Virus record (IMG/VR): IMGVR_UViG_3300034120_000242
Coordinates: 1-27,065 of that record
From: a virus
Direction: 5' to 3' (one strand)
Length of the DNA: 27,065 nt
The notes beneath the pieces were generated by a model. The model worked only from the letters and a program-made list of their open reading frames with translations. It made no database searches and had not been told where the DNA came from. Positions 23,440 through 27,065 of the stretch are shown here, piece by piece. The position numbers and the translations under genes were made by a program. How positions within the stretch are numbered: the stretch's first letter is position 1; the number at the start of each line of letters is the position of its first letter.

Positions 23440-23467
23440 ATTATACACAGTCAATTACCAGAGTCAA
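23440..23467 (-). promoter_or_regulatory. Sigma-70-type promoter for the 134-aa/SSB genes
   Basis: On the minus strand the -35 box TTGACT (23462-23467) is separated by 16 bp from a perfect -10 box TATAAT (23440-23445). The expected start point near 23433 leaves a leader of about 23 nt to the ATG at 23410, with AAGGAA in it. The -35 box overlaps the last codons and stop (23464) of the SNF2 helicase gene. Confidence 0.75.
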
Positions 23468-25014
23468 GCTATTTCTTGTTTATAAAGGTCTACCAGCCCT
23501 TGATGTAAGTCGATCTTCCCGTCGAGCAGGGCGTATATGCGGGCTTCCACCGGGCTCCCTTGCAGTCGCACGACGGTGACTTTGTTGGTCTGCCCCGCAC
23601 GGTGAGCGCGAGAGTTGCCTTGGATGTACAGTTCTGCGGATGGCACAGGCCCCCACCACACTACGGTGTCTGCCCGGGTAAGGGTAATCCCATGTGCAGC
23701 GGCTTGCGGAATCAGTAGGATAACTTTGGGATCGTCCTCCGTCTGAAACTGCTTGATGGACTCAGAGCGTTGCGAAGCGGGTGTACCGCCGTGGATTGAC
23801 CGGAACGACACACTAGCCTTGGCTAACTGCTGCTCCAGCATCTCCAGCGCGTGCCTGAAGGGAACAAACACAATGACCTTGTGCGCGGTCTGGTCGATTA
23901 CGTCAAGGAGTTCGTTAACCCGGTTGCTGACATCGAACTCAACGACATCCCGGTCTGTTGTGTACGCACACCCCGCGCTCACTTGGAGTAGCTTGTTGAG
24001 TAACCCTGCGGCGTTGACCGCCGTAATCTCCGCGCCTGCGGCCTGTGCAATCATCGACTTTTTGATTACGTCATAGTAGTGTTTTTGTTGTTTGGTCAGC
24101 GGTACATCCCGAGTGGTGTACAGCATGTCGGGCAAGTCTAAGCACTCCTCTTTGGTAAACCGGATAGCGGGTTGCAGCACGCGGTAGACCGTATCCTGAG
24201 CCGTACGTTTTGCAGCCCATTTGAACTGCGTGACTTTGTACATCACCATGTCGCGGAACGCCCCTGCAAAGCGAGGCACTGACCCGGGGTTCACGAGCTT
24301 GGCAAGACCATAGGCATCTACCGGTGACTGCGATGCGGGCGTGCCCGTCATAAGCCAAAGCCGCGTAGCGGGAGAGACAAGCGTGTTTAGCGCTTTCCAG
24401 CGGTCCGTGCCAGTAGACTTGATGGCCGATGCCTCATCCACGATAACAAGGTCAAACTTAGCGGCTTCCAACTCGGCGCGGACAACCTTCACACCATCAA
24501 AGTTGATGACGACAAACTCGTAGTCCCCGTCAATGATCTTGATGCGCCTGTCGCGGGAGCCTGTGGCAATAGCCACCGTGCGGTGCATAACCGTTTTGAA
24601 CAAGTCAGACCGCCATGCAGTGTCCATGATAGACACCGGGCATACGATTAACACCCGGCGAATTTCCCCATGCCGCATGAGGTAGTCCGCAGCCCACGCT
24701 GCTGCGCTTGTTTTGCCTGTCCCCGCCTCCGATAGCACAAGGCACTTGGGATGCGTTGCCAAGAACGCGGCTGTCTCTCGCTGATGCGAAAACGGGGTAT
24801 AGACCCCGGGCCACTTGTACCTGCCCGTGATGGGGTGCGGTACGTCCTTGATCTGAAGGTTACGAAGCAGCTTGGCTTCGTTGTGCCCCCAATTTACGAT
24901 GATCTTTGCTTGGTCGCCCTTGCGGGCAATGACCTTGCTTTTGGGTATCAGGGCGGTGATCTGGTCCGCCTTTCGTGTCACAAACTGCAAGGCCCGGTTG
25001 TCAATTATTTCCAC
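23464..25014 (-). CDS. SNF2-family (superfamily 2) DNA helicase/translocase (516 aa)
   Basis: I place the start at GTG 25014 with GGAAGG 7-12 nt upstream; the longer frame from a TTG at 25086 would translate the terminator hairpin. Motifs in order: Q-like YTPFSHQRE (72-80), I SEAGTGKT (95-102), Ia VCPVSIM, II VDEAS (D193, E194), III MTGTP (222-226), a C-terminal RecA lobe from about 375 (VIVFVPF, SIHGGTPASQR), V AAHGITLTRAD, and VI SRAHRAGQ (468-475). DEAS replaces the common DEAH. The RAHRAGQ arginine motif is diagnostic of SNF2/Rad54-type double-strand translocases. Phage members are thought to act in recombination-linked replication or branch migration. It sits in the replication block after the Cas4-like nuclease and HNH genes but behind a terminator, so its expression may need read-through. 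Confidence 0.9.
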   Translation of the reverse strand: MEIIDNRALQFVTRKADQITALIPKSKVIARKGDQAKIIVNWGHNEAKLLRNLQIKDVPHPITGRYKWPGVYTPFSHQRETAAFLATHPKCLVLSEAGTGKTSAAAWAADYLMRHGEIRRVLIVCPVSIMDTAWRSDLFKTVMHRTVAIATGSRDRRIKIIDGDYEFVVINFDGVKVVRAELEAAKFDLVIVDEASAIKSTGTDRWKALNTLVSPATRLWLMTGTPASQSPVDAYGLAKLVNPGSVPRFAGAFRDMVMYKVTQFKWAAKRTAQDTVYRVLQPAIRFTKEECLDLPDMLYTTRDVPLTKQQKHYYDVIKKSMIAQAAGAEITAVNAAGLLNKLLQVSAGCAYTTDRDVVEFDVSNRVNELLDVIDQTAHKVIVFVPFRHALEMLEQQLAKASVSFRSIHGGTPASQRSESIKQFQTEDDPKVILLIPQAAAHGITLTRADTVVWWGPVPSAELYIQGNSRAHRAGQTNKVTVVRLQGSPVEARIYALLDGKIDLHQGLVDLYKQEIA

Positions 25015-25033
25015 GGGTTTCCTTCCACAGACG

Positions 25034-25063
25034 AAAAAAGCACGGTAGGGTGAACTACCGTGC
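25034..25063 (-). terminator. Rho-independent terminator upstream of the SNF2 helicase
   Basis: On the minus strand a perfect 9-bp stem (GCACGGTAG / CTACCGTGC, 25040-25048 and 25055-25063) with a 6-nt loop is followed at once by six T residues (25034-25039). On the plus strand the stem is followed by GAACC, so it is one-directional. It lies 61 bp after the HNH gene's stop and only about 20 bp before the helicase start codon. Confidence 0.88.
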
Positions 25064-25124
25064 GAACCAACTTGAACTAACAGCAACCAAAAACACCAGC
25101 CTTCGCTAGTGCGGGAATCTTACC

Positions 25125-25403
25125 CTACTTTGCGGCTTCCCGTTTGCTTGTTTGCGACTTCATCGCGCCCGCTTTGGTACGGGCAAAACTTCGATTTGCA
25201 GCCCGAGAAGCTGCCTGCAAGTTGCCTACCTTGGACGAGCCCCCCTTGGATAGGGCCTTCTTGTGGTCTACGTCCACATTATCTGGCAGGGTGCCGTTGG
25301 TTTTCTCGTAAGCCCGCCGCGCCTTATGCCGCTCGGATTGAGCCGCAAGTTGCTTCGGGGTGCCTTGGTACTTTTTGTATTCTTCGGCGTAGTTGCGGGG
25401 CAT
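25125..25403 (-). CDS. HNH-type endonuclease-like protein (92 aa)
   Basis: ATG 25403 has a strong AGGAG site (25410-25414) that overlaps the stop of the nuclease gene before it. After a basic N-terminus (MPRNYAEEYKKYQGTPKQ, then RHKARRAYEK), residues 44-75 read DVDHKKALSKGG...VGNLQAASRAANRSFAR. D46-H47 is the HNH metal/general-base site, N61 the central Asn, and N70-R71-S72 the region where the last H/N falls. Small proteins of this 'VDH..pLSKGG...NL.....NRS..R' type are frequent in phage replication regions. The zinc-knuckle Cys pairs of larger HNH enzymes are absent. It may nick or cleave DNA during replication, recombination or packaging, or be a free-standing homing-type gene. It is the last gene before the terminator. 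Confidence 0.78.
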   Translation of the reverse strand: MPRNYAEEYKKYQGTPKQLAAQSERHKARRAYEKTNGTLPDNVDVDHKKALSKGGSSKVGNLQAASRAANRSFARTKAGAMKSQTSKREAAK

Positions 25404-25412
25404 GTCTAACTC

Positions 25413-26072
25413 CTACTTGTGGTGTTCGCACGTAGTGACGGGGCAGAACCCGCACAGGCCGCTAGGCCGCGCATTCCAAACCCCACCGTCAAGCGCGGAC
25501 TCAATCATACTCGCGTGGCCCGCCCACTTGGAGAAAATCTCTGGTAGCTGCGCCCGGGTGTACTCGGCCTTCACGACATCGTTCGCAACGACGAACAGCA
25601 GTGCCCCCTTGACGATATTAACCTTGGGGTAGTGCGACATTACCATCGCGGCCATAAGCTCAAGCTGCTCTGTATCTGCAAACCGACTCGACTTGCCTGT
25701 CTTGTAATCCCCAACCCGAGCGATACCCTTAGCGTGGTTAAGCGCTAGGTAGTCTGGGACACCCCGGAACCATACGTCCTTTGCAAAGAACTCGCAGGGC
25801 GAGAAGTCCCGGCGAATGCCGAGCTTGAGTTCGCACTTGAGTTCACCTGCAACTTTGGCAAGAGGCTCCACGAAACGCTCGTAGTGCTTAAGATTTTCTG
25901 GAAGTAGGGTTCCGTTTTGGATGTAGAGTTCAAAGGCTTTGTGTACACGCTCTCCGTAGAGCGTTGCTTCCGTTGGTGACGATTTAAAATGCTTGAGGAT
26001 GCGAACCTCGTGATACCTCCGCTGACATCCAAGGTAGTCTTTAATAGAGCTATATGAATGTGCAAGTGCCAT
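25413..26072 (-). CDS. Cas4/RecB-like PD-(D/E)XK exonuclease with Fe-S cluster cysteines (219 aa)
   Basis: I start at ATG 26072 (MALAHSYSSIKDYLGC); the longer frame from 26195 would overlap the polymerase. An N-terminal Cys16 plus three C-terminal Cys (C207-x2-C210-x4-C215) match the [4Fe-4S] clasp of Cas4 and AddB-type nucleases. The catalytic set is present: H44 (LYGERVHKAFE), D107 (RGVPDYLAL), D122-x-K124 (VGDYKTGK) and Q136 (QLELMAAM). The family degrades single-strand DNA ends. There is no cas1, cas2 or repeat array here, so a role in phage DNA end processing or recombination is more likely than CRISPR adaptation. It is located 38 bp after polA and 9 bp before the HNH gene. Its ribosome-binding site is weak (AAAAAACCT), consistent with read-through expression from the polymerase message. 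Confidence 0.87.
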   Translation of the reverse strand: MALAHSYSSIKDYLGCQRRYHEVRILKHFKSSPTEATLYGERVHKAFELYIQNGTLLPENLKHYERFVEPLAKVAGELKCELKLGIRRDFSPCEFFAKDVWFRGVPDYLALNHAKGIARVGDYKTGKSSRFADTEQLELMAAMVMSHYPKVNIVKGALLFVVANDVVKAEYTRAQLPEIFSKWAGHASMIESALDGGVWNARPSGLCGFCPVTTCEHHK

Positions 26073-26110
26073 AGGTTTTTTCTGCGTTGAGTGGGCACTG
26101 ATTGTACTTG

Positions 26111-27065
26111 TTAGCAGTCCCCATAAGAATACCCGACGCCCGACTCGCAAGCTAGTGGCAACCCCGTTGCCCACTTTGGATTCCATGACATGCACTCCTC
26201 GACATAGGCTTGCGCCTCTTTGGATTCTGATTCTTTGGCGATGATGGCAGCCGCGTCATGCACGGTCAGCACCACCTTGTAGCGCTTGGCTATACGCAGC
26301 ATCTGCTCTGCGACAACGCACCGGGCAACGGCTTGGCAGAAGTTCTCCACAACCTTGCCGCCGTAGATGTACACCGGAACGCCCTTGGACATGTAACGCC
26401 ACTGGTTCTTCTCCTCGCCCTCTACGGTCTTCATGACCACCCGCATCAACTCAGGGTACTGGATGAACAACCCGCTTGGCAGCGTAAGCCCCTTGCCCGG
26501 TACGACGTTGATGATGCCCGGTTCACCCACCCGCATGGCATTGCCCATAGCCAGCGCCCGCAGTGCAGCGTCGCCTTGCTTCCACAACAGGGGGATGTTT
26601 GGGTACGTAGCGCGGTACTTGTCCACGATGCGCTTGGCCTCTTCCTCGGATACGTCCACCGTGGCTTGCATCTTCAGGAACGCCCGCAGCTTCTTATGCC
26701 CGACGCCGTAGCCCGCCCCAAGAATCACGGTCTTGCCTACCTGCCGCTGTGCGCGTGTGACTTCCTCAATCGGGGTGCCGTAGATAGAGCTTGCCATGAT
26801 CTTGTAGACATCTTGCTTCTTTGCAAACGCTTCTATCAAGTCATGCTGCCCAGCCAGCCACGCCAGCACCCGCGCTTCAATCTGCGAGGAGTCGCAGTCA
26901 ATGACAACGTAGCCCGGGGGTGCCTTCATAGCCCGCTTAATCTTGCCTGCGTTAGCCCCACGCGCCGGTAAATTCTGGAGGTTCACAGAGTCTTGCCCTG
27001 ACCAACGCCCTGAGTGTGCGCCGTAGTACCGCAGGGGAATAGGCATGGCCCCTCGGTCTGCCATA
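26111..27065 (-). CDS. polA: Family A DNA polymerase, C-terminal part (5' end outside window)
   Basis: At least 317 C-terminal residues are visible; the reading frame continues off the edge, and the first visible ATG (27064) is an internal residue because YYGAHSGRWSG...NLQNLP is a mid-polymerase motif. Numbering from that Met, motif A is DSSQIEAR (catalytic D58), motif B is R107-x3-K111-x3-L115-x3-Y119 (RQVGKTVILGAGYG), and motif C is VHDA (H269, D270). The position equivalent to E. coli Pol I Phe762 is Leu115, a variant known from viral PolA clades, and the usual Glu after the motif C Asp is Ala271. The product should replicate phage DNA together with the primase-helicase. Any 3'-5' exonuclease domain would lie outside the window. 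Confidence 0.93.
   Translation of the reverse strand, partial: MADRGAMPIPLRYYGAHSGRWSGQDSVNLQNLPARGANAGKIKRAMKAPPGYVVIDCDSSQIEARVLAWLAGQHDLIEAFAKKQDVYKIMASSIYGTPIEEVTRAQRQVGKTVILGAGYGVGHKKLRAFLKMQATVDVSEEEAKRIVDKYRATYPNIPLLWKQGDAALRALAMGNAMRVGEPGIINVVPGKGLTLPSGLFIQYPELMRVVMKTVEGEEKNQWRYMSKGVPVYIYGGKVVENFCQAVARCVVAEQMLRIAKRYKVVLTVHDAAAIIAKESESKEAQAYVEECMSWNPKWATGLPLACESGVGYSYGDC

Follow-up and report, generated by a model that had tools for sequence, protein, structure and literature searches.

Double-hairpin anti-Shine-Dalgarno RNAs are widespread in Burkholderiales. Described examples are the RF02278 RNAs of Burkholderia cenocepacia, which fold into double hairpins with CU-rich stretches complementary to ribosome-binding sites and of which one, ncS27, slows growth when overexpressed (PMC5688073). 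RF02278 is named for toxicity in Escherichia coli (PMC4603805, citing Kimelman 2012). Knowledge of phage small RNAs comes largely from prophages and a small number of cultured phages. Here, we examine a hairpin in the gap between an HNH-type gene and an SNF2 helicase gene in a clade of uncultured phages, and we conclude from sequence comparison that it is probably (at roughly three chances in four) the intrinsic terminator of an independent, predicted small-RNA gene that resembles these bacterial RNAs in layout.

The DNA analyzed (the window) is a virus record of 27,065 nucleotides, in which the minus strand carries, in this order, genes for polymerase A, a PD-(D/E)XK exonuclease, an HNH-type protein, and an SNF2 helicase. 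The DNA polymerase A gene (26111..27064; PF00476), of which the C-terminal part is present, runs off the window, and the exonuclease gene (25413..26195; PF12705) has an uncertain start codon; both are also assigned by conserved synteny. The small HNH-type protein (25125..25403; 92 amino acids), encoded directly upstream of the predicted RNA, belongs to phrog_4590, a group of unknown function, and has no Pfam match; its putative HNH label derives from the preliminary description and from a DVDHKKALSKGG...N motif. The SNF2-family helicase gene (23464..25014; 516 amino acids; PF00176 and PF00271; phrog_62, E 4e-106) has the Shine-Dalgarno sequence GGAAGG at 25021..25026 and a GTG start codon at 25014-25012, which has the support of the relatives, nearly all of which align from residue 1 onward. 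We note that, among the sigma-70-like promoters in the scanned region, the strongest (TTGACT-16-TATAAT, 11/12; window positions 23467-23440, minus strand) sits at the end of the helicase gene, ahead of a gene for 134 amino acids.

The preliminary description of this DNA had pointed to a perfect 9-bp stem with six T's facing the helicase gene, and we recovered it at 25063-25034 of the minus strand. The hairpin, hereafter SL2, reads GCACGGTAG-TTCACC-CTACCGTGC (25040..25063), has six G-C pairs and a folding energy of -14.6 kcal/mol, and leads directly into a TTTTTT run (25034..25039), where the RNA is predicted to end; every relative likewise has a T-rich tail behind SL2. A GC-rich stem-loop with a T-run directly behind it is the arrangement of an intrinsic (Rho-independent) terminator, and this one is unidirectional, as the plus strand has no T-run after the hairpin. 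On both strands of the 27 kb, this is the single site that combines a perfect 9-bp stem with five or more T's in a row, and such a site arises in 1 of 300 dinucleotide shuffles. A looser terminator scan gave 17 sites against 14.2 ± 3.7 expected, which is no excess over chance. Between the T-run, which ends at 25034, and the helicase GTG lie the 19 nt CGTCTGTGGAAGGAAACCC, and it holds for the window, as had been proposed, that the interval from the T-run to the start codon has no room for a promoter. Expression of the helicase probably depends on read-through of the terminator.

What the first reading had overlooked is a perfect 8-bp hairpin (25112-25093) and a TAAGAT box (25122-25117) that belong to the same conserved unit as SL2. 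To follow this unit in relatives, we used 80 IMG/VR loci found through the helicase and 80 found through the HNH protein, with contigs partly shared. Both genes, in the order polymerase-exonuclease-HNH-helicase, were present in 150 IMG/VR loci, which represent 86 distinct elements, and the HNH-helicase gap held one unit in each of the 150 (all 86 distinct cases). The unit consists of a TAnnnT box (in most cases right after the stop codon of the HNH gene), a 5' hairpin (SL1), a linker, the SL2 terminator, and the T-rich tail, and the RNA predicted from it is 65-95 nt long across relatives. In the window, the predicted small RNA of about 78 nt occupies 25034..25111 of the minus strand, where it is matched by the covariance model described below. 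Its SL1, GCACTAGC-GAAG-GCTGGTGT (25093..25112), has an 8-bp stem with a folding energy of -11.7 kcal/mol and is likewise a hairpin in relatives, and SL1 and SL2 are joined by a single-stranded linker (25064..25092). One locus (L244) has seemingly lost the unit. We also observed that the polymerase A reading in several relatives (L005, L009, L013, L038, L011, L014, L016, and L061) is split at several points by inserts of ~700-1000 nt that resemble inteins, introns, or homing genes and that matches to the helicase (L092 and L145) or the exonuclease (L024, L034, and L061) are interrupted by insertions that range from several hundred to ~1000 nt.

Covariation argues that both hairpins are kept as RNA structures. 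The preliminary description had suggested aligning relatives to see whether the terminator hairpin is kept; it is, and in 39 aligned sequences 99.7% of SL2 cells were paired and 8 of the 9 pairs had changes on both sides. Compensatory changes occurred in 64 cells of this alignment, compared with 18.5 after shuffling and at most 7 when the pairing was slid, and the covariation score was 0.527, compared with 0.158 (shuffled) and at most 0.142 (slid). An alignment of all elements together misaligned SL1 between subclades and was excluded from the SL1 statistics, and SL1 was tested in two alignable groups. In the group of 22 sequences, 90.6% of SL1 was paired, with compensatory changes, and in the group of 19 sequences 4 of the 5 main pairs had changes on both sides; the folding energy of the SL1 region was only weakly below that of shuffles (median z -1.16). 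A covariance model, R1, built from the 19-sequence group with the window left out, matched the window at 25124-25031 (minus strand) with 38.2 bits (E 8e-7 over 417 kb). It also recovered most other clade members tested and gave one proper match in each of five long phage contigs. A coding reading of the region, in which a frame is open from the TTG at 25086, was dropped because the hairpins covary and the lengths differ between relatives.

The unit was absent at the HNH-helicase position in sister clades, whose helicases are 53-58% identical, and R1 found no match in these sister clades or in Rhizobium phage RHph_TM3_14A, Pseudomonas phage Rollin, or HMO-2011. In cultured relatives the helicase is at best 37% identical, and inspection by eye of the gap behind the HNH gene of RHph_TM3_14A revealed no such unit. 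An HMO-2011-type identity, considered as a candidate, was ruled out: HMO-2011 has primase, DnaB-like helicase, and polymerase genes in a row, and its annotation contains no SNF2/HNH pair. A search for the host through bacterial genomes returned only two distant helicase relatives, both in metagenome-assembled genomes (MAGs). We note that in the sister clades (L254, L256, L262, L263, L264, L265, and L302) the HNH-helicase gap is conserved in a different form: it measures about 220-280 nt, contains a segment resembling ACC.TATCAGTTGGGG together with CU-rich stretches that look like hairpins, and may encode another RNA.

A predicted promoter precedes the RNA. In the window, the -10-like box TAAGAT (25117..25122, minus strand) lies 2 nt after the HNH stop codon. 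A TA...T pattern was aligned ahead of SL1 in 77 of 77 distinct flanks, a constancy that is partly by construction because TA...T was the search rule, and position 5 of the hexamer was A in 58 of the 77. Near-consensus promoters of the form TTGAC[AGT]-17 nt-TAnnnT, with a spacer of exactly 17 nt, were found in eight loci (L014, L015, L016, L019, L024, L052, L061, and L062; hereafter the L014-L062 subclade). The spacers differ between the members, and coding constraint does not explain these promoters because the HNH gene is there shortened or far away. It is this subclade that constitutes the independent evidence for the predicted promoter. A recognizable -35 element is missing in most copies; outside the subclade the -35 region falls in the coding end of the HNH gene and is poor, and the window copy, in which the hexamer at 17 nt is AAACGG and lies within the HNH gene, has no good -35. 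The start point of the window RNA would be at about 25111. Seven of the eight loci (L014, L016, L019, L024, L052, L061, and L062) have, in addition, a second conserved hairpin, GCCGAGTGCAGACCGCAC(C/T)TCGGCTATT, in the interval between the terminator and the helicase start.

Insertions near the unit show how it relates to its neighbors. In L016 and L024, where the HNH-helicase gap is 943 and 422 nt, the insert precedes the promoter, and promoter and RNA remain together; in L071, with a gap of 582 nt, RNA and terminator are intact directly behind the HNH gene, and the insert, which we read as a putative HNH-like reading frame, lies ahead of the helicase. Insertions on either side thus leave the unit intact, indicating that it depends on neither neighbor and behaves as an independent small-RNA gene. 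These cases bear on the leading alternative, control of the helicase in cis, by which the unit would be a leader whose attenuator or antitermination site determines the number of transcripts that extend into the helicase. In favor of this, almost all of the phages have the unit immediately ahead of the helicase gene, the terminator is strong, and no other promoter serves the helicase in the window. However, the unit persists in L071 behind a gene-sized insert, where it is not adjacent to a helicase leader, and the terminator-to-helicase distance varies widely across relatives (about 18-60 nt). Further, the 5' part of the RNA pairs with the 5' arm of SL2 no better than shuffles do (mean z 0.19), which gives no conserved antiterminator pairing, and the RNA shows no preference for pairing with the leader of its own helicase (mean rank 0.53). 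In L014 and L019, complementary stretches had hinted at such leader pairing but proved no better than swapped pairs. We therefore regard cis control as unlikely. Of the earlier interpretation as a whole, a strong, conserved terminator facing the helicase stands, but its proposed role as a dosage switch for the helicase is not supported, given that the whole small-RNA gene is conserved and stays intact despite the inserts. Read-through remains necessary for the helicase, whose dose could be influenced as a side effect and may well be set by partial read-through. We note that the helicase has no Shine-Dalgarno sequence in one large group of relatives (L022-L067), in which a leader TTCTATTCAAATTTAT is found just before the ATG.

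A second alternative is that SL2 is an ordinary intergenic terminator that insulates the polymerase-exonuclease-HNH transcript, with SL1 and the -10 box devoid of function. Intrinsic terminators are common in phage genomes, and the stem and T-run are typical of them. This reading nevertheless leaves unexplained the conserved TAnnnT, the covarying SL1, the UCUCCU motif described below, and the consensus promoters of the L014-L062 subclade, as well as why such a terminator would sit inside a single replication operon, and we consider it very unlikely. Most improbable of all is a replication element, whose short transcript would serve as a primer for DNA synthesis or open an origin next to the replication genes, since the location among polymerase, exonuclease, and helicase genes and a likeness of promoter plus terminated RNA to RNA-primed origins are set against a conserved RNA structure and an anti-Shine-Dalgarno motif that point to an RNA function.

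If the unit is an independent small-RNA gene, a possible mode of action is suggested by a short motif. UCUCCU is present in 55 of 73 distinct 5' parts, compared with 3.3 in shuffles (maximum 7), a count that is inflated by relatedness; in most relatives it lies in the linker. As the complement of AGGAGA, UCUCCU mimics the core of the anti-Shine-Dalgarno sequence. We propose that transcription would run from just past the TAnnnT box, which follows the stop codon of the HNH gene, to the T-run, yielding a two-hairpin RNA whose linker or 5' loop would, in most of the clade, expose UCUCCU for pairing with Shine-Dalgarno sequences. Since UCUCCU can pair with such sequences, the RNA would most likely act in trans and mask the ribosome-binding sites on messages of the host or the phage, in the way of the Burkholderia double-hairpin RNAs, and the helicase would be expressed from transcripts that read through the RNA terminator. 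The window copy and its near-identical relatives have no CUCC, and neither do roughly a dozen further distinct copies (L008, L010, L043, L089, L102, L141, L144, and others), so anti-Shine-Dalgarno action cannot be universal. Further, CUCC is predicted to be paired, at least partly, in several folds (e.g. that of L009), and a crude search, which took no account of accessibility, found no target recurring among phage translation starts. Anti-Shine-Dalgarno action in the clade is, in our view, possible at slightly less than even odds, and for the window copy we rate it lower. The idea that these phages avoid Shine-Dalgarno sequences to spare themselves was unsupported; their genes have such sequences, although the way in which start codons were chosen for this count favored them.

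If our reading is right, a structured RNA gene has been kept in one place in well over 100 uncultured phage contigs, with a plausible action, the masking of ribosome-binding sites, that is common to growth-inhibiting bacterial RNAs. A bolder and rather doubtful extension is that this environmental phage clade carries its own counterpart of the Burkholderiales double-hairpin anti-Shine-Dalgarno RNAs, which would hold down host translation in infected cells during expression of the replication genes, and that the branch to which the window belongs has been retuned to another target. The covariation and promoter evidence make the RNA gene directly testable. The locus also advises caution, in that a terminator just ahead of a gene may be the end of an RNA gene and not a switch for the next gene. 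We found no description of such a phage RNA in the open-access literature searched; the family is apparently undescribed, and its novelty is provisional.

Compared with known families, the window gave no Rfam match over any cut-off, and the best sub-threshold matches land exactly on the unit. RF02278 scored 17-27 bits in 7 of 20 phages, the best (27.1) being below the cut-off of 50 and thus outside the family. RF02837 (anti-hemB; Burkholderia RNA 7), a hairpin with a UUCUCCUCC loop, a linker, and a terminator, matched L040 end to end with 28.4 bits, again below its cut-off (49.5), and no other phage element matched it convincingly. In 100 genomes from the order of the Gallionella MAG, RF02278 was present in 67, whereas R1 gave one weak match (E 1e-3), indicating that the phage family is no simple copy of the bacterial one. 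The sibling small RNAs NmsR of Neisseria meningitidis, as described in PMC5688073, have two CU-rich unpaired stretches complementary to ribosome-binding sites but form a bacterial tandem pair. DicF, IpeX, c4, and IsrK are, like the proposed RNA, phage or prophage small RNAs acting on host or phage messages (PMC12197685), but they are known from a few cultured phages. As for RF02278 itself, the Burkholderia members ncS03, ncS05, ncS27, and ncS62 are 57-92 nt long and consist almost entirely of two hairpins, of which the second is an intrinsic terminator (PMC5688073), as in the phage unit. The CU-rich unpaired stretches of these bacterial RNAs, complementary to ribosome-binding sites, may have a counterpart in the UCUCCU motif of most phage copies, which is partly paired in some of them and absent from the window copy. 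The two kinds differ in that the bacterial RNAs have UGUCUCCUC 5' of SL1 and a second CU stretch in the SL1 loop, whereas in the phage RNAs, which are located in phages, the CU motif sits in that loop or, more often, in the linker on the 3' side of SL1. By analogy, the phage unit may work as the RF02278 RNAs do while standing outside that family.
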